DNA of 64,000 nucleotides from Methylobacter luteus IMV-B-3098 (GTDB taxonomy: Bacteria; Pseudomonadota; Gammaproteobacteria; Methylococcales; Methylomonadaceae): assembly GCF_000427625.1 (NCBI RefSeq), contig NZ_KE386569.1:3232674-3296673 (forward strand). Direction: 5' to 3'. Under the pieces are notes generated by a model. That model searched no databases and was not told the origin of the DNA. It saw nothing but the letters and a program-made list of their open reading frames with translations. The translations under genes and the position numbers were made by a program. Below, piece by piece: positions 56,509-62,818 of this stretch (position 1 is the stretch's first letter; each line of letters starts with the position of its first letter).

Positions 56509-56547
56509 TTTTGTGCGGTTATTATAACAATTATGAGGAGAACATTT

Positions 56548-56946
56548 ATGGCTTTAATCACTTGGACAGCTGGTCAATTTGGCACTAATGTAGGGTTTGC
56601 CGATGATGAGCACAAAATTTTATTTGATAAACTGAATAACTTATATGATCTGGCAACCGGTGGCGCAGATCGTTCCGCTGTCGGTAATCAGCTGGATGAC
56701 TTGATCTCTTATGTTGTAGGACATTTCGCTCATGAAGAAAGAGAAATGCTGGCGAAAGACTTCAATGGCTATACGGCTCACAAGGCTGAGCATGAAGCTT
56801 TAATCGGTATTTGTGCCGGACTGCAAACAAAATTTCATGCCGGTGAGGCTGAAGTTACCGAAGAAGTCGGTCAAATGGTGAAAGGTTGGCTGGACCATCA
56901 TATTCCTACATTTGATATGGCTTATGCCGATGCATTGAATAGCTAA
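56548..56946 (+). CDS. bacteriohemerythrin
   Basis: 132 residues from the ATG at 56548, with GAGGAGAAC upstream; earlier in-frame codons are not needed. The non-haem di-iron oxygen site is complete: DDEHKILFDKLN, HFAHEEREML, HKAEHEALI and HHIPTFDMAYAD supply the His, Glu and Asp ligands. Single-domain hemerythrins of this kind bind O2 and are known in methanotrophs, where they can aid oxygen supply to membrane methane monooxygenase. It is flanked by an FNR-type box and a terminator, so it forms its own transcript. Confidence 0.94.
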   Translation: MALITWTAGQFGTNVGFADDEHKILFDKLNNLYDLATGGADRSAVGNQLDDLISYVVGHFAHEEREMLAKDFNGYTAHKAEHEALIGICAGLQTKFHAGEAEVTEEVGQMVKGWLDHHIPTFDMAYADALNS

Positions 56947-57193: not shown

Positions 57194-57934
57194 ATGACTA
57201 GTTTCCAGAAATTGATTACTTGTAGTGAGGGACAAAAGGACGCTCATGGATTTCCTGCATGGAATAATATTTTTTTGCCATCAGATTCAAACGCTTTTTA
57301 TTTTGTCGATAACAGATTACCCGAGCATGTCCTAAGAAATCTTGTTTTTCATATATCTAGAAAGCCTAGACAATTAATTACTCATATTCAGCGTATTTAC
57401 CATTGTTACTACGCAAATTTATCGGAACAACTTTTTGCAGCACTTGTTGATTTTCTGGTTGTTTTAGATCGGCGCGGTACGAAAATCAGTCGGCGCATGA
57501 TAATCGGAACAAGATCAAAGTTGTCCCGGGAGCAGTATAAGTCGTTGCAGGCATTTATGGTGAATGAAATGGATATCTCAGCACTAGCCGGAAATCAATA
57601 TTCCATTTTTACAAAAGGATTGATTGGCACTCAAGACCTAGTGCAACAGGCGGCGAGTGCTTCAACTAAACAAGCGTATGACCCGCTAAATTTGGCGCGC
57701 GATTATATTGAATACAGTCAGCTTGCTGAAGCAAGAGATGTGCTGGAAAAAGCTATCGTAAACGAACCGCACAGGCTGGAATTGCATCAGAGCTTGCTAG
57801 AGCTTTATAAATCAACACAGGATGTTTCAGGATTAAAAAAAATGGTCGATATTTTTGCTGACTTGAATATAGCAATGCCCGACGACTGGAATGAATTAAT
57901 GACGCTTTTTATGAGCAGCAGCAATGAACAATAA
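57194..57934 (+). CDS. FimV-like TPR protein of the GTPase locus
   Basis: 246 residues, no signal peptide. The N-terminal ~130 residues are unfamiliar, with basic segments (HVLRNLVFHISRKPRQLITHIQRIYHCYY). The C-terminal part (residues ~160-235) has two TPR-like helices, LNLARDYIEYSQLAEARDVLEKAI and HRLELHQSLLELYKSTQDV, resembling the C-terminal domain of FimV (LAKAYIDMGDAEAAKDI). It overlaps the next gene by 11 bases, the tight linkage of partners. It may be the protein-binding platform of the GTPase module. Unknown family; the comparison with FimV is by eye. Confidence 0.75.
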   Translation: MTSFQKLITCSEGQKDAHGFPAWNNIFLPSDSNAFYFVDNRLPEHVLRNLVFHISRKPRQLITHIQRIYHCYYANLSEQLFAALVDFLVVLDRRGTKISRRMIIGTRSKLSREQYKSLQAFMVNEMDISALAGNQYSIFTKGLIGTQDLVQQAASASTKQAYDPLNLARDYIEYSQLAEARDVLEKAIVNEPHRLELHQSLLELYKSTQDVSGLKKMVDIFADLNIAMPDDWNELMTLFMSSSNEQ

Positions 57935-59069
57935 ACGCAAAAGCTCTTTAAGAGTCGCGCTTCACGGCATGGATGGTCGCACTTATAAAACGATGGTGAT
58001 GTATCTTCAAGGGCCTTGTAAAGGCGCGGCCACTGTTGTTGAAGATTTGGACGCTGAAGTTGATATGATTGATGCCGATTCAGTCAATGCCAAAGCACTG
58101 CTTGAACAGAGGCAGACCGAAAACTCCGTTCGGCCTATTATCGTATTATCCTTGCAAGAGCTGAACCTGGATAATGTGTTGTATGTAAAAAAGCCGGTAA
58201 AAACAGCTGATATGCTAGACGCTTTGAGTAAAGCCGAAGCGATATTGACTGCAAAACAAAATCCGAGCGATGAGGTTCTGTTTAACAAGAAGCTGTTTAT
58301 AAATAAGGATGAGCACAAAAAGACATCTAAACATCAAACGGCGATGCATCTTGATGAAGGAAATTTCAATGCGTTTATAGGTTCCATTCCTGGTCTGGAT
58401 GTGAATGATCCGAAACAATTTCCTAATGCTTCTTATAATCCTAAGGAATATTTTCAAGGATATTTTCAATCCGCATGCCTTATAGCGCAGACAAAAAAAC
58501 AAGTATTACATCTTAACTCAGGCTGGAAGTCGCTGATTATTTTTCCTCATAATCATGAAATTTGGCTTGATGCGGATGACAAACAGCTGCGGGCGTTCGC
58601 CGGTTTGCCAATCAGTAGCCTGTCTGGCCCAGGCATGTCACTTACTCCGGCTAGCGCACATACGTTATCTGTCAAGAAAGAGCTGGATAAATTTCATAAT
58701 GTGGACGCCTTTCTGTGGAAGTTGGCTGTATGGACGTCTAAAGGACGCTATCCTGTTGCCCTGGATATTCATAAGCCGGTTTTTTTAAAACACTGGCCGA
58801 ACTTTACTCGCCTTGTTGTTACTCCTCATGCATTAAGAATTTCAGCATTGCTTATAGCGAGCCCGAAAACCTTACCCGATATCGCTGAAACTTTAAAAAT
58901 CAAACCACAATATGTATTTGCTTTTATCAGCGCAGCGCATGCACTTGGCTTGGTTAAACAAGCCAAACGTCAAGCCGATGAAATCGTTCAGCCTCCAGTT
59001 ATGAAAAATAATGAACGGCAGGGATTATTAACTCGCATTATCAGCAAATTACGCGGACACAAGTCATAA
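57924..59069 (+). CDS. pseudo-receiver protein with C-terminal winged-helix-like part
   Basis: 381 residues. Residues 1-115 look like a degenerate response-regulator receiver: a first strand RVALHGMD, EVDMIDADS, PIIVLSLQ, and VLYVKKPVKTADMLDAL, the Lys-Pro of the last loop being kept, while the usual phospho-Asp setting is not clear. The middle (~150-290) is unknown, with a Trp-rich segment (GWKSLIIFPHNHEIWLD). Residues ~295-350 (TPHALRISALLIASPKTLPDIAETLKIKPQYVFAFISAAHALGLV) resemble a winged helix. It begins inside the preceding gene and the GTPase gene follows 13 bases on, so it is probably a part of that module. Confidence 0.7.
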   Translation: MNNKRKSSLRVALHGMDGRTYKTMVMYLQGPCKGAATVVEDLDAEVDMIDADSVNAKALLEQRQTENSVRPIIVLSLQELNLDNVLYVKKPVKTADMLDALSKAEAILTAKQNPSDEVLFNKKLFINKDEHKKTSKHQTAMHLDEGNFNAFIGSIPGLDVNDPKQFPNASYNPKEYFQGYFQSACLIAQTKKQVLHLNSGWKSLIIFPHNHEIWLDADDKQLRAFAGLPISSLSGPGMSLTPASAHTLSVKKELDKFHNVDAFLWKLAVWTSKGRYPVALDIHKPVFLKHWPNFTRLVVTPHALRISALLIASPKTLPDIAETLKIKPQYVFAFISAAHALGLVKQAKRQADEIVQPPVMKNNERQGLLTRIISKLRGHKS

Positions 59070-59082
59070 AGTTGGGAACAAT

Positions 59083-59619
59083 ATGAGCCAATACAAAATT
59101 ATCTTTACCGGTCCGGTTGGTGCAGGTAAAACAACAGCTATCGAATCAATAAGCGATGTGCCGCCGGTTAAAACGGATGCGACTGCCAGCGACATGACAA
59201 AGAACAGGAAATCATCAACCACTGTAGCCATGGACTATGGGATTATGAACCTTGCCGGTGGCGAGAAGATTCATCTTTACGGCACACCCGGACAAGAACG
59301 CTTTGACTTTATGTGGGATATTTTGACCACAGGCGGTATAGGCCTGATTTTACTGCTTGATAATACCAGAGCGGATCCTTTCCAGGATATGAAGTTTTTT
59401 TTGGATACGTTTCAGTCATTCATAGCAAAAACGAATGTGGCTATCGGTGTAACGCAGATGGATTTGAGCGATAAACCGGCTATTAATGATTATCATGTTC
59501 AGCTGCAAGGAATGGGGCTTAAACCACCAGTGTTCTCTGTAGATGCCCGCATTAAAAGTGATGTGTCTCTTTTAGTGCAGTCGCTACTATATTCCTTGGA
59601 TCCTGAACTCGAGGAATAA
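59083..59619 (+). CDS. MglA/CvnD-like small GTPase
   Basis: 178 residues. Motifs: P-loop GPVGAGKTT at 10-18, switch I threonines in SSTTVAMDYG at 44-53, switch II LYGTPGQERFDFMWDIL at 65-81, and TQMD at 125-128 in place of NKxD. The sequence matches the predicted GTPases of COG2229, relatives of MglA (polarity switch in Myxococcus) and CvnD of Streptomyces conservons. Such GTPases are turned off by roadblock proteins; two such genes follow. Cytoplasmic; cycling between GTP and GDP forms is expected. Confidence 0.9.
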   Translation: MSQYKIIFTGPVGAGKTTAIESISDVPPVKTDATASDMTKNRKSSTTVAMDYGIMNLAGGEKIHLYGTPGQERFDFMWDILTTGGIGLILLLDNTRADPFQDMKFFLDTFQSFIAKTNVAIGVTQMDLSDKPAINDYHVQLQGMGLKPPVFSVDARIKSDVSLLVQSLLYSLDPELEE

Positions 59620-59622
59620 CGC

Positions 59623-60261
59623 ATGAGCAATTATGCCTTGAAGAAAGGGTTGTATTTGTATCCAACGCCTGCGGGGGCTTATTATGCCGTCTGTTCTGTC
59701 AATAAGGACAGGCCTCGGCAGTTTTTGAGAGCCCTGTTAGCCCAGGAACAAACCCCTGAGCTTAACATGATCAATTTGCAGAAGTTAATGAGCCAGCATG
59801 AAGAAGCAAAATGTCTGGAATTGCTGCATCATTGCCAAAAATTAGGCTGGGTTCAGGGGCTTGATACCGTACATTATTATTCGCACGATGCATTAGAAGA
59901 CATTTTGCCTGATCTATTAAGTAAAATTTCGGAAAATGGCAAGGTGCTCCTGGCGGACAGCCAAGGTTTCTATCTGTCCAGTCATGGGTTTCCGCATGAA
60001 GTTGCTGAAGAGCTATCAGCATTAAGCGCGGAAATAGCTACCATTCACGAGCGTCGATCAGGTTTATTGATGAACAATATGGGACTGGCTAGCAACGCGT
60101 GGGCGGTCATTGATGCGTACGGTAATAGTCAGCTTGGATTTTGGCCATTATTTATTGGTAATAATCGCTTTGTTATTGCTATTTCGGGTATTCCCCATTT
60201 TAATCATCCAGAATTCGTTTCTCTGGTTTGGGCATTGAGTATGCGTTATGCCACTAAATAA
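59623..60261 (+). CDS. roadblock-like protein with N-terminal extension
   Basis: 212 residues, ATG four bases after the GTPase stop. Residues ~105-210 resemble a roadblock/LC7 fold: VLLADSQGFYLSSHGFPHEVAEELSALSAEI, then ASNAWAVIDAYGNSQLGFWPLF and RFVIAISGI, the usual five-strand, two-helix order. Residues 1-100 are different, with strand-like YPTPAGAYYAVCSVN and helical PRQFLRALLAQEQT-like parts, probably another binding domain. It may bind the GTPase as a partner or GAP of a mixed pair with the next roadblock protein. Confidence 0.7.
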   Translation: MSNYALKKGLYLYPTPAGAYYAVCSVNKDRPRQFLRALLAQEQTPELNMINLQKLMSQHEEAKCLELLHHCQKLGWVQGLDTVHYYSHDALEDILPDLLSKISENGKVLLADSQGFYLSSHGFPHEVAEELSALSAEIATIHERRSGLLMNNMGLASNAWAVIDAYGNSQLGFWPLFIGNNRFVIAISGIPHFNHPEFVSLVWALSMRYATK

Positions 60262-60311
60262 CGCTTAATTAATAATTTATCATTTAATAATCAAAAATAA
60301 GAGACAGAAAT

Positions 60312-60674
60312 ATGCGCGCAGATATGCTGGCTTCAGTGTTAACAGAACTTAATGGTACTTCAGCAGATATTGAGGCATCGGGTGTAATATCGACAGATGG
60401 CTTAATGATGGCTTCTGTGTTGCCTGCCGGACTGGATGAAGATCGGGTGGGTGCTATGAGCGCCGCTATGCTTTCGCTGGGTGATCGCACCGCTCAGGAA
60501 CTGACAAGAGGGACATTGGAACAGGTTTTAATTAAAGGTGCCAAAGGCTATGTCCTGATGGTTTATGCCGGTAATGAATCCGTATTAACCGTTCTGGCAA
60601 AACCTAATGCTAAGTTGGGCTTGATTTTTCTTGATGTGAAACGGGCAGCGAACAGTATCTCTGAATTGCTGTAG
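60312..60674 (+). CDS. roadblock/LC7 domain protein (MglB/CvnB-like)
   Basis: 120 residues, all in one roadblock domain: LASVLTELNGTSADIEASGVISTDGLMMASVLP is the first strand-helix block, then DRVGAMSAAMLSLGDRTAQELTRGTLEQVLIKG, and VLMVYAGNESVLTVLAKPNAKLGLIFLDVKRAA. MglB is a GTPase-activating partner of MglA; the same pairing is in conservons. It lies 50 bases after the preceding gene and appears to end the first part of the locus. Confidence 0.9.
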   Translation: MRADMLASVLTELNGTSADIEASGVISTDGLMMASVLPAGLDEDRVGAMSAAMLSLGDRTAQELTRGTLEQVLIKGAKGYVLMVYAGNESVLTVLAKPNAKLGLIFLDVKRAANSISELL

Positions 60675-60808
60675 GGACCTTTGGAAGGAAGTAATTGGTT
60701 ATAAAATAACCATGAAATTTATATAATAAAAAATGAATAGATATTGAAATATTACTTATAAATGTTGTGAAGTAATAAGTTCGATATATTCAATACCGGG
60801 GAAAATAA

Positions 60809-61366
60809 ATGTCACCGAATTTCAACGAATTAATTGAATATGCCAAAGCATTTTCCGGTTTGACACCTGAGCTTGAATTATGTCTAAAAGACATCGGACC
60901 GGAAATTATGCCGCATCTACAAGCCGTTACCGACTCTTTTTATGATCAATTAACTACGATACCTTCAACCGGCAAATATTTGGAAGGACGAGTGGAAACT
61001 TTAAAAATAGCTCATTTAAGATGGATGACAGGGTTATTTGCCAATAATATCGATGCTGAATTTGCTCGAAACATGTATCAGGTAGGCGATATCCATGTCA
61101 AAGTTAATTTGCCTGTTGAATTTATGGCAGGTGCTATGACCTTAATTAACAATGAACTCACCCGCATTGTTATCGAGATATTCGGACATAGCGGTGAAAA
61201 ATGCTCGAAAGCGTTGCAGGCGATCGGTTCAGTTACAGGGCTTGCGTTAATGATAATGCAACAGTCTTATCAGAAATCGACAATTGCCGAAGAGTTGGAA
61301 AAGTTTCTCAGCATCTCTGGCATGAGCAGAACGTTGTTTGCTAACCTTGCCAAAGCTTATAAATAA
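60809..61366 (+). CDS. stand-alone protoglobin
   Basis: 185 residues of the sensor-globin/protoglobin type. A likely proximal haem histidine is H96 in MYQVGDIHVKVNLPVEFMAGAM, in the usual setting for globin-coupled sensors such as HemAT. The N-terminal ITELIEYAKAFSGLTPE-like opening and the long helices up to SGMSRTLFANLAKAYK complete the fold. No signalling domain is attached, so it probably works by binding another protein of the locus. Its own upstream region holds TATAAT at 60722-60727. Confidence 0.82.
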   Translation: MSPNFNELIEYAKAFSGLTPELELCLKDIGPEIMPHLQAVTDSFYDQLTTIPSTGKYLEGRVETLKIAHLRWMTGLFANNIDAEFARNMYQVGDIHVKVNLPVEFMAGAMTLINNELTRIVIEIFGHSGEKCSKALQAIGSVTGLALMIMQQSYQKSTIAEELEKFLSISGMSRTLFANLAKAYK

Positions 61367-61576
61367 TCAAAAATTAACTTCGTGAAATAAATACTCCGCC
61401 ATTTTCAAAATGATTGAGTATTGATTTCACTTATTTCACTGTGTAATCACAGCATTCTTGACTTAGATCACAAGAAACAGCAACGGCTCAATTATTCTAA
61501 GTATTTATATTAAATAATCAGCCCCATAAAAATTAATGATCAGTTTATCGGGATGTTACCAGAATGGAGATATATA
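61367..61576. other. 210-base gap with FNR-like site before the PAS gene
   Basis: Contains the FNR-like box noted separately and the leader of the PAS gene. No small gene was seen. Confidence 0.5.
61458..61498 (+). promoter_or_regulatory. FNR/ANR-like box and promoter of PAS operon
   Basis: TTGACTTAGATCAC at 61458-61471 matches TTGATnnnnATCAA at 8 of 10 positions and has the same TTAG spacer as the hemerythrin box. TATTCT at 61493-61498 is a likely -10; a start of transcription near 61505 again puts the box centre at about -41. Confidence 0.6.
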
Positions 61577-62053
61577 ATGCTTTATGATATGAAACCTGAG
61601 GATATAATTGGTGATTATCAGGAGGTTACTCTGAATTTATACGGCGGTATAAAACGCAAGGTTTTATATACCCAAATTGAGACACCCTATCCTGACGGTA
61701 AACTGATCGTATCAACAACAGATCCGGACGGTGTCATTACGCATGTCAATCAATCTTTTATTGAAATGTCTGGCTATACCGAAGATGAGCTGATCAATAC
61801 TCCACATTCAATTTTGAGACATCCGGATATGCCATCGGCAGCGTTCAAGGACTTGTGGGATACTGTACAAAAAGGCAATAAATGGCAGGGATTTGTTAAA
61901 AACTTGCGTAAAGACGGCGGTTATTACTGGGTTAAGGCTACCGTTATTCCTAATGTAAGGCAGGGCAAGGTAGTAGGTTATACCTCCGTGCGCCGCAAGC
62001 CTTCCCGTACTAAAGTGGAAGAATGCATTAAGCTTTATCCGACTTTGTTTTAA
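61577..62053 (+). CDS. soluble Aer-like PAS protein
   Basis: 158 residues from the ATG at 61577 (TGGAGA upstream); eight more in-frame codons exist. A PAS domain occupies ~40-145: DPDGVITHVNQSFIEMSGYTEDELINTPHSILRHPDMPSAAFKDLWDTVQKGNKWQGFVKNLRKDGGYYWVKATVIP, abridged here by its blocks HPDMP, WQGFVKN and YYWVKA. These are the blocks of the FAD-binding PAS of the aerotaxis sensor Aer. There is no membrane segment and no signalling domain, so it would need a partner. The next gene begins 18 bases after its stop. Confidence 0.88.
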   Translation: MLYDMKPEDIIGDYQEVTLNLYGGIKRKVLYTQIETPYPDGKLIVSTTDPDGVITHVNQSFIEMSGYTEDELINTPHSILRHPDMPSAAFKDLWDTVQKGNKWQGFVKNLRKDGGYYWVKATVIPNVRQGKVVGYTSVRRKPSRTKVEECIKLYPTLF

Positions 62054-62071
62054 CCCATACGGAGCCTAATC

Positions 62072-62818
62072 ATGTCGAACATGTTCACAGTCAGCCCAGA
62101 TTTCTCCCCCGATCATATTTCCGGCTGGTATATCTTTAATACCTGGCTTCAAAAACAGAGTGGGGAAGCTATTCATTTGCAAATGTATGACAATTTTCCT
62201 ACGCAGAGAGAAGCTATTAATCTGGATAAAATTGATTTGATTTATGCTAATCCATTTGATGCTGCTATGTTGGTGCGTGAAAAGGGTTTTTTGCCTTTGG
62301 TAAAGCCAACTGGCGTTGCTGATGAGGCTGTTATTGCCATTAATGCCAAAAACACCGTAGAAGATGTGTCACATTTGTCGCCAGGCATTCGAGTCGCTGT
62401 CACTGAGGATCCTGATGTCCACTTGATGGGCATGATTATGCTGGAGCCTGGGGATTTGGATGATAGCAATGTAGAGACAATGGTGTGTGATTCATATGTG
62501 CTAATTGCAAAACAGTTGCTGCGCGAAAATGCAGATGTCGGTATTTTTTTGGCTGAAGCTTATGACAATTTATCGAATATCATTAAAAATCAGTTAAAAG
62601 TGCTAGTTCGCAGCCAGATTAGTGTTGTCCATCATTCACTGATGATCGGGCCGAAGCTGGCTGATAAAAGAGACGTCTTTCAAGAGTTGTTGGTTGATAT
62701 GAATAATGATGAGAAAGGACGGGGGGTCTTGGAAAGTTTGGGCTTTGATGCCTGGATGCGTGTTGATGATGAGGAAATGGAATTCATGATTGATCTGATG
62801 GATACTTTAAATACATAA
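62072..62818 (+). CDS. PhnD-like binding protein lacking a signal peptide
   Basis: 248 residues of the phosphate/phosphite/phosphonate-binding fold: FTVSPDFSPDHISGWYIFNTWLQKQSG, then DLIYANPFDAAMLVREKGFLPLV, and an ending like the family's second lobe. Family members are normally exported; here the protein begins MSNMFTV with no leader, so it is cytoplasmic. Paired with the PAS gene, it may be a ligand-sensing part of the module. No permease or ATPase genes are near. Confidence 0.82.
   Translation: MSNMFTVSPDFSPDHISGWYIFNTWLQKQSGEAIHLQMYDNFPTQREAINLDKIDLIYANPFDAAMLVREKGFLPLVKPTGVADEAVIAINAKNTVEDVSHLSPGIRVAVTEDPDVHLMGMIMLEPGDLDDSNVETMVCDSYVLIAKQLLRENADVGIFLAEAYDNLSNIIKNQLKVLVRSQISVVHHSLMIGPKLADKRDVFQELLVDMNNDEKGRGVLESLGFDAWMRVDDEEMEFMIDLMDTLNT

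Follow-up and report, generated by a model that had tools for sequence, protein, structure and literature searches.

Among bacterial systems that pair a small Ras-like GTPase with roadblock proteins, the Group 3 MglA systems are the closest described relatives of the locus reported here. According to the portions of the survey by Wuichet and Sogaard-Andersen (PMC4316618) drawn on in this work, Group 3 systems are found almost exclusively in Beta- and Gammaproteobacteria and consist of a protein with a receiver-like N terminus and a winged-helix-like C terminus, an MglA GTPase, and one or two MglB proteins. This work describes an eight-gene locus (positions 57194-62818) in a 64,000-nucleotide stretch of Methylobacter luteus IMV-B-3098 DNA (contig NZ_KE386569.1), referred to here as the window. 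The genes, designated A to H, encode a TPR-like protein (A), a receiver-like protein (B), a GTPase (C), two roadblock-type proteins (D and E), a protoglobin (F), a PAS protein (G), and a PhnD-like binding protein (H). The locus is a real, conserved, operon-like module, in which the GTPase core fits an already described kind and the proposed sensor wiring is a new variation on it. With modest confidence, we favor the reading that it is a Group 3-type MglA switch served by cytosolic sensors encoded as separate proteins in the same module, with E acting as a sensor-docking adaptor.

Like a Group 3 system, the module combines a receiver-like protein, an MglA with GTPGQ, no Lys in the G4 motif and DAR in G5, and one or two MglB-type roadblocks. 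The Group 3 descriptions consulted in PMC4316618 mention no TPR, PAS, PhnD-like, or globin gene, whereas the module has all four; D also carries an extra N-terminal part relative to the Group 3 roadblock. A second precedent is HGbRL, a globin-roadblock fusion from Methylacidiphilum infernorum, in which, on the authors' proposal, a signal passes from the globin to the roadblock domain (PMC4476040, cited from excerpts). There, too, a globin is coupled to a roadblock, and the host, again a methanotroph, has an MglB-MglA-like pair as well, but HGbRL is one fused protein with another type of globin, while the module has separate genes, a protoglobin, and further sensors. Actinobacterial conservons (Cvn, Group 2) likewise wire a roadblock and a small GTPase to a sensor; that sensor is the membrane histidine kinase CvnA (PMC4316618, relevant sections), and none is present among the module's eight genes. 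Escherichia coli Aer has a PAS domain with the same flavin adenine dinucleotide (FAD)-contact residues as G, which differs in having neither a hydrophobic segment nor a chemoreceptor signaling domain. The Myxococcus MglA/MglB/RomR system (Group 1) shares a GTPase, a roadblock, and a receiver protein with the module; to our knowledge, its operon includes no stand-alone gas or redox sensors. Group 1 differs further in its TVPGQ motif and intrinsic Arg finger, as given in the same sections of PMC4316618.

In open-license PMC full text, searched mostly at the level of result listings, we found no description of a sensor extension of the Group 3 core. Protoglobin combined with roadblock gave no paper in this literature, and PMC4476040 was the only globin-roadblock paper found. 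The initial annotation of the window knew of no described equivalent for the whole combination, which is wrong for the GTPase core, whose layout agrees with the one published for Group 3 MglA.

Conservation of the gene order

The open reading frame (ORF) listing of the window bears out the eight genes originally proposed, all on the + strand. The frames of A and B share 11 nt, and the spacings after them are 13 nt (B-C), 3 nt (C-D), 50 nt (D-E), 134 nt (E-F), 186 nt (F-G), and 18 nt (G-H). A promoter and terminator scan of the module was uninformative, with counts below the shuffle means.

To survey conservation, C was used as a query against a species-level genome collection, and the best 80 of 502 stretches encoding a relative were retained. 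The order A-B-C-D-E-G-H is found on one strand in 62 of these 80 loci, with median gaps, measured between alignment ends, of 9 to 56 nt (9 for C-D, 29.5 for E-G, and 18 for G-H). Among the 18 loci that are not complete in this form, eight end at a contig edge (L037, L039, L046, L060, L071, L072, L078, and L083), and L077 has all members with the G-H pair duplicated; the other nine are considered below.

A second sample comprised 274 evenly drawn Gammaproteobacteria genomes, including that of M. luteus itself; it has in common with the first at least Methylotuvimicrobium buryatense, whose GTPase rows L048 and L136 are identical. In M. buryatense 5G (L048), A-B-C-D-E-G-H is present and F is absent. 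At cut-offs of 1e-15 for C and 1e-10 for E (expectation values), C was detected in 47 genomes and E in 36, with H in 13. For G, the search gave 11 matches at 6e-73 or better, the next match appearing only at 4e-49. All 11 full-strength G orthologues lie between E and H, under eight family labels (f1, f73, f76, f77, f79, f93, f147, and f158), and C belongs to the operon in 10 of the 11 genomes; the exception, G146 (L183), reads A-B-D-H'-E-G-H. The initial annotation would have given up its single-system interpretation had sensor genes and GTPase/roadblock genes never been linked; they are linked across all eight labels. On a tree of C, built solely from the sequences fetched here and with bootstrap values far from settled, 13 changes are required to account for the loci that have G and H, a number compatible with the sensor genes having been gained or lost more than once.

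The GTPase core and the predicted sensor proteins

C (59083..59619, + strand) is a small Ras-like GTPase of the MglA family by motif alignment and by its Pfam/NCBIfam matches (ATP_bind_1, Ras, and small_GTP), and it is the only match of its kind in its genome. Its P-loop reads GPVGAGKT. GTPGQ is present in 25 of 25 aligned rows, G4 is without Lys in 25 of 25, and DAR is found in 24 of 25 (DPR in L056); in the cited part of PMC4316618, a G3 motif of GTPGQ marks Groups 2 to 5, and a G4 without Lys together with a G5 of DAR marks Groups 2 and 3. Some relatives outside the 25-row alignment have Lys in G4 (L142 and L143). Assignment to Group 1 was rejected, as every aligned row has GTPGQ in place of TVPGQ. 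As a separate observation, the gene beside a related GTPase in two loci (L156:6623-7975 and L159:6650-7969) combines, by eye, an ABC-type ATPase half with a PTP-like HCKAGxGRTG motif.

B (57924..59069, + strand) has, from alignment landmarks and a hidden Markov model (HMM), a receiver-like N-terminal domain followed by a C-terminal region. D50, K90, and P91 are invariant and S76 is kept at 90% or more, while the acidic pair is absent. The HMM also matches, at 30-104 bits, the gene beside the GTPase in simpler loci (L162, L164, L167-L172, and L174). B thus appears receiver-like and fits the Group 3 partner described in the excerpted text of PMC4316618; by analogy only, its C-terminal region may be a winged helix. 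In L054, L064, L074, and L080, B and C are present and D, E, G, and H were not found in the fetched flanks (only 1.6 kb downstream in L074); in L074, B matches flank the GTPase on both sides.

For D (59623..60261, + strand), there was no Pfam match above the cut-off, and hhalign against the E alignment gave nothing; a fold prediction was therefore used. The AlphaFold model (predicted local distance difference test [pLDDT] score, 89.5; predicted template modeling score, 0.85) has a C-terminal roadblock fold, with roadblock, MglB, and Ragulator structures as the top Foldseek matches (probability, 1.0; E values, 1.6e-4 to 1e-3). Judging by the secondary structure of the model, we take the N-terminal region before this fold to be winged-helix-like. 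The earlier assignment of two roadblock-type proteins holds because of this fold in D, E being recognized by Pfam, and the module thereby has the one or two adjacent roadblocks of a Group 3 system.

A (57194..57934, + strand) is the least conserved member, with a mean column identity of 44%. Its AlphaFold model is all-helical and confident in the C-terminal half (pLDDT of 91-97 for blocks in residues 161-240). That half is TPR-like: Foldseek returned mostly TPR proteins, the best at an E value of 0.0047 and none at 0.001 or below. Of the FimV-like TPR protein proposed initially, the TPR-like part stands and the FimV label is rejected, since FimV_Cterm (TIGR03504) scores 14.9 bits against a curated cut-off of 30.65. 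Taken together, the predicted features of B-C-D-E fit Group 3 MglA, a described but little-studied class.

G (61553..62053, + strand) is a stand-alone Aer-type PAS protein of 166 aa that matches only PAS models in Pfam, with a maximum KD19 of 0.93 over 25 rows. It aligns with the Aer PAS domain (8dik) at an E value of 3e-39. The positions aligned with Aer R57, W70, N85, and R115, in what we take to be the Aer residue numbering, are invariant in 25 of 25 G proteins; M69 is replaced by Leu, and T27 could not be placed. In Aer, the four residues lie around the FAD, and the passage used from PMC9668731 also names M69 and T27. As such, G is predicted to be an FAD-binding redox sensor. It is not an Aer chemoreceptor, having neither the membrane segment nor the MCP signaling domain.

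H (62072..62818, + strand) is a PhnD-like binding protein (Pfam Phosphonate-bd, 122 bits), without a signal peptide or hydrophobic segment as judged by crude hydropathy. In PtxB, a phosphite-binding relative of solved structure, an S-T-S stretch presumably binds the anion; in H, this stretch aligns with the DDPDV region and is not kept, and H was rejected as a phosphonate sensor on this motif. The cytosolic PhnD-like binding protein proposed earlier agrees with the family of H and with the absence of a hydrophobic N terminus.

Upstream of the module lie biotin genes (named by eye from the sequence) and a bacteriohemerythrin gene (window 56545-56946, 123.6 bits), a further O2-binding protein just outside the module. 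Neither bacteriohemerythrin nor bioD was accepted as a module part, as they were found in the fetched flanks of only 2 of 80 loci (L005 and L006 for the hemerythrin).

E-type roadblock proteins and their gene neighbors

E (60312..60674, + strand) is a roadblock/LC7 protein (Pfam Robl_LC7, 57 bits) with an Asp-Gly pair (D29-G30), and it is the proposed sensor-docking adaptor. Among solved structures, its nearest relatives are Asgard archaeal roadblocks (7f8m at 1.3e-31 and 9jue at 1e-24), followed by CvnB5 (3.9e-12) and Myxococcus MglB (2.5e-4). The M. luteus genome encodes four E-family (Robl_LC7) proteins and one GTPase C. One E copy belongs to the operon, where F, G, and H follow it; the remaining three adjoin a protoglobin, a V4R protein, and a PAS-SpoIIE/STAS-PhnD pair. 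At the last of these (L089:7605-12025; G000:C1, about 1678605-1683025), the gene for an E-type roadblock precedes those for a PAS-SpoIIE phosphatase-HATPase protein and a STAS-PhnD fusion, an arrangement that, going by the predicted domains, is a partner-switching version of the roadblock/PhnD pairing.

To see what E adjoins away from the GTPase, we used 201 genomes of the order, calling E and C at 1e-30 or better. E occurs there as 133 copies in 96 genomes, and C occurs in 92 genomes; 60 E regions were fetched (L194-L253) in addition to L088-L090 of the M. luteus genome. After removal of three operon remnants (L240, L242, and L248) and the unfetched G319, the 44 copies more than 6 kb from C left 40 orphans, all scoring at least 100 bits. 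A sensor-type gene adjoins 27 of these: 19 protoglobins (by HMM or Pfam), 4 V4R proteins (all by Pfam), 3 ODP di-iron family proteins (1 matched by Pfam, the other 2 recognized by eye as nearly identical in sequence), and the PAS-SpoIIE/STAS-PhnD pair. The Pfam check of E neighbors covered 20 proteins rather than each copy. V4R, ODP, FIST, and CZB are sensory domains. The V4R neighbors are at L088:5601-6646, L202, L213, and L236; V4R and roadblock are also mentioned together in a paper on Asgard archaea (PMC10933270). In L229-L231, from genomes without C at 1e-30, a divergent E-type roadblock is beside an ODP-family protein (PF19583, 232.6 bits in L230; L229 and L231 by eye).

The class sample gave 28 E copies of at least 150 bits outside the M. 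luteus genome, 27 of which were mapped, L149 being lost to an overlapping frame. Sixteen of the 27 adjoin a sensor-type gene, namely, G or F, FIST (L151), CZB (L188), or a GAF-histidine kinase (L187). In L189, the neighbor of E is a 158-aa protein with no Pfam match, and a weaker E copy in L159 adjoins a bacterial (truncated) globin.

F (60809..61366, + strand; Pfam Protoglobin, 89 bits) is a stand-alone protoglobin. Its proximal His, H96, is kept throughout the 34 aligned rows (at least one a duplicate), and 31 of the 34 share a conserved C-terminal tail past the globin domain. F occurs in only 6 of the 80 loci; it was rejected on that count as a core member and is an optional insert. The pairing of protoglobins with E-type roadblocks nevertheless recurs, so the original inclusion of the globin holds for the pairing and not for the core. 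Of the 38 protoglobin frames of at most 240 aa in the order genomes, 26 have an E copy no more than 600 bp away, compared with 0 of 78 longer frames, and 37 come from genomes that encode E; of the twelve frames with no E copy so near, two adjoin divergent E-like genes (L256 and L262). Protoglobin also adjoins E in the GTPase loci L138, L141, L144, and L161. The tail is only suggestive as a mark of E linkage, as L255 and L257-L259 have it with no E neighbor within about 3 kb.

The E tree, with few columns, long branches, and unsettled bootstrap values, places 12 of the 19 orphan protoglobin-linked copies in one loosely supported set (92/73), the other seven being scattered. Partner labels change 37 times on this tree, compared with a shuffled mean of 64.9, which indicates that copies with the same type of partner tend to group together, though they do not trace to a single origin. 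A broader idea, which we hold tentatively and rate below even chances, is that E-type roadblocks are a general plug-in adaptor whose copies pair with differing stand-alone sensors, namely, FAD-PAS plus PhnD-like proteins, protoglobin, V4R, the ODP di-iron protein, FIST, CZB, or truncated globin. Several sensor-adaptor pairs scattered over a genome would then feed into one MglA-type GTPase hub.

Proposed working, alternatives, and meaning

In the proposed Group 3-type switch, C would cycle between GDP and GTP, and the roadblocks D and E would form the platform that sets its nucleotide state. E would dock the sensors: G (FAD-PAS, redox), H (PhnD-like, small ligand), and, in this lineage, F (heme gas, probably O2). 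The state of a sensor would alter how E engages D and C, and the state of C would be read out by the receiver-like B and by A as a TPR-like scaffold, with transcription or type IV pilus/surface behavior as the output. What the analysis shows is the gene linkage, the conservation, the cofactor residues of F and G, and the predicted folds of D and A. For the contacts, the direction of regulation, the ligands, and the output that we infer here, docking on E with relay to the D/E/C switch is the simplest account. Its precedents are the HGbRL fusion (PMC4476040) and, as far as the cited excerpt of PMC11112851 goes, Snodgrassella, whose mutant in an orphan mglB of Group 3 formed motile flares on soft agar and showed changed colony spreading.

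Several observations weigh against this account. The E-F and F-G gaps in the window permit separate transcripts. Nine of the 80 loci have some members missing despite room for them (L028, L036, L050, L054, L063, L064, L068, L074, and L080); two genomes, G146 (L183) and G289 (L242), retain E-G-H without a recognizable GTPase; and an H relative is found away from E and C in 2 of 13 H genomes (G026 and G172). In the order sample, 5 of 96 E genomes are without C at 1e-30, and in G434 and G467, counted among those with both genes, the sole C match is distant (about 1e-39). No sensor neighbor was identified for 13 of the 40 orphan E copies: 4 are near a CysM-like gene (3 by eye and 1 by size and place), 2 are beside a response regulator (one matched by Pfam, the other assigned by eye), and for 7, of which 2 are at contig ends, no partner was identified. 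The same is true of 11 of the 27 mapped class copies (L139, L140, L146, L147, L153, L154, L155, L189, L190, L191, and L192). Many loci are also close kin, and the counts are not independent events.

The strongest alternative, to which we give a minority chance, is that the E-type roadblock and its sensors form a separate device, whose target could be, for example, a kinase, a partner switch, or an NTPase other than C, and which merely lies next to the Group 3 core. The retention of E-G-H without C in G146 and G289 would fit such a device, as would the orphan sensor-E pairs far from C, the ODP-linked E copies in genomes without C at 1e-30, and the partner-switching arrangement around one E copy of the M. 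luteus genome. However, E and C occur together in 91 of the order genomes, against 6 with one alone (E in 5 and C in 1); 89 of the 133 E copies are within 6 kb of C, against 44 farther away; and C is encoded in each of the 18 genomes that have a protoglobin-E pair among the orphans.

Less probable still is an ordinary Group 3 MglA system for type IV pili or surface behavior, in which the PAS, PhnD-like, and globin genes are cotranscribed but unrelated in role. The core does match the layout published in the consulted parts of PMC4316618, the Snodgrassella mutation affected colony spreading (PMC11112851, same excerpt), and the 11 class E copies with no identified sensor neighbor are in keeping with such a system, but G is flanked by E and H in all 11 genomes with a full-strength orthologue, and globin, V4R, ODP, FIST, and CZB proteins recur beside E. 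For F alone, and compatible with the other readings, the chance arrival in the operon of a protein that scavenges or detoxifies gas would explain its presence in only 6 of 80 loci and its longer flanking gaps in the window, but is improbable given that 26 of 38 stand-alone protoglobins adjoin E, that two more are beside divergent E-like genes, and that 31 of 34 rows share the tail. The single-system interpretation of the initial annotation is partly supported: its gene linkage holds, and it is revised in that the core fits a known kind, F is optional, H lacks the PtxB motif, and the FimV label does not stand.

The Group 3 papers, in the parts cited (PMC4316618 and PMC11112851), name no input signal, and the conserved sensor genes offer candidate inputs in the form of redox state, a heme-bound gas, and a small ligand. 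These genes also suggest a way in which roadblock proteins, which bacteria share with archaea and eukaryotes, may be coupled to signals. If the plug-in adaptor idea is true, it would amount to a bacterial network of separate proteins connecting many sensors to one GTPase, unlike two-component or chemoreceptor designs. For methanotrophs, the module points to an uncharacterized route of O2/redox control and suggests a modular wiring of sensors to a cell switch.

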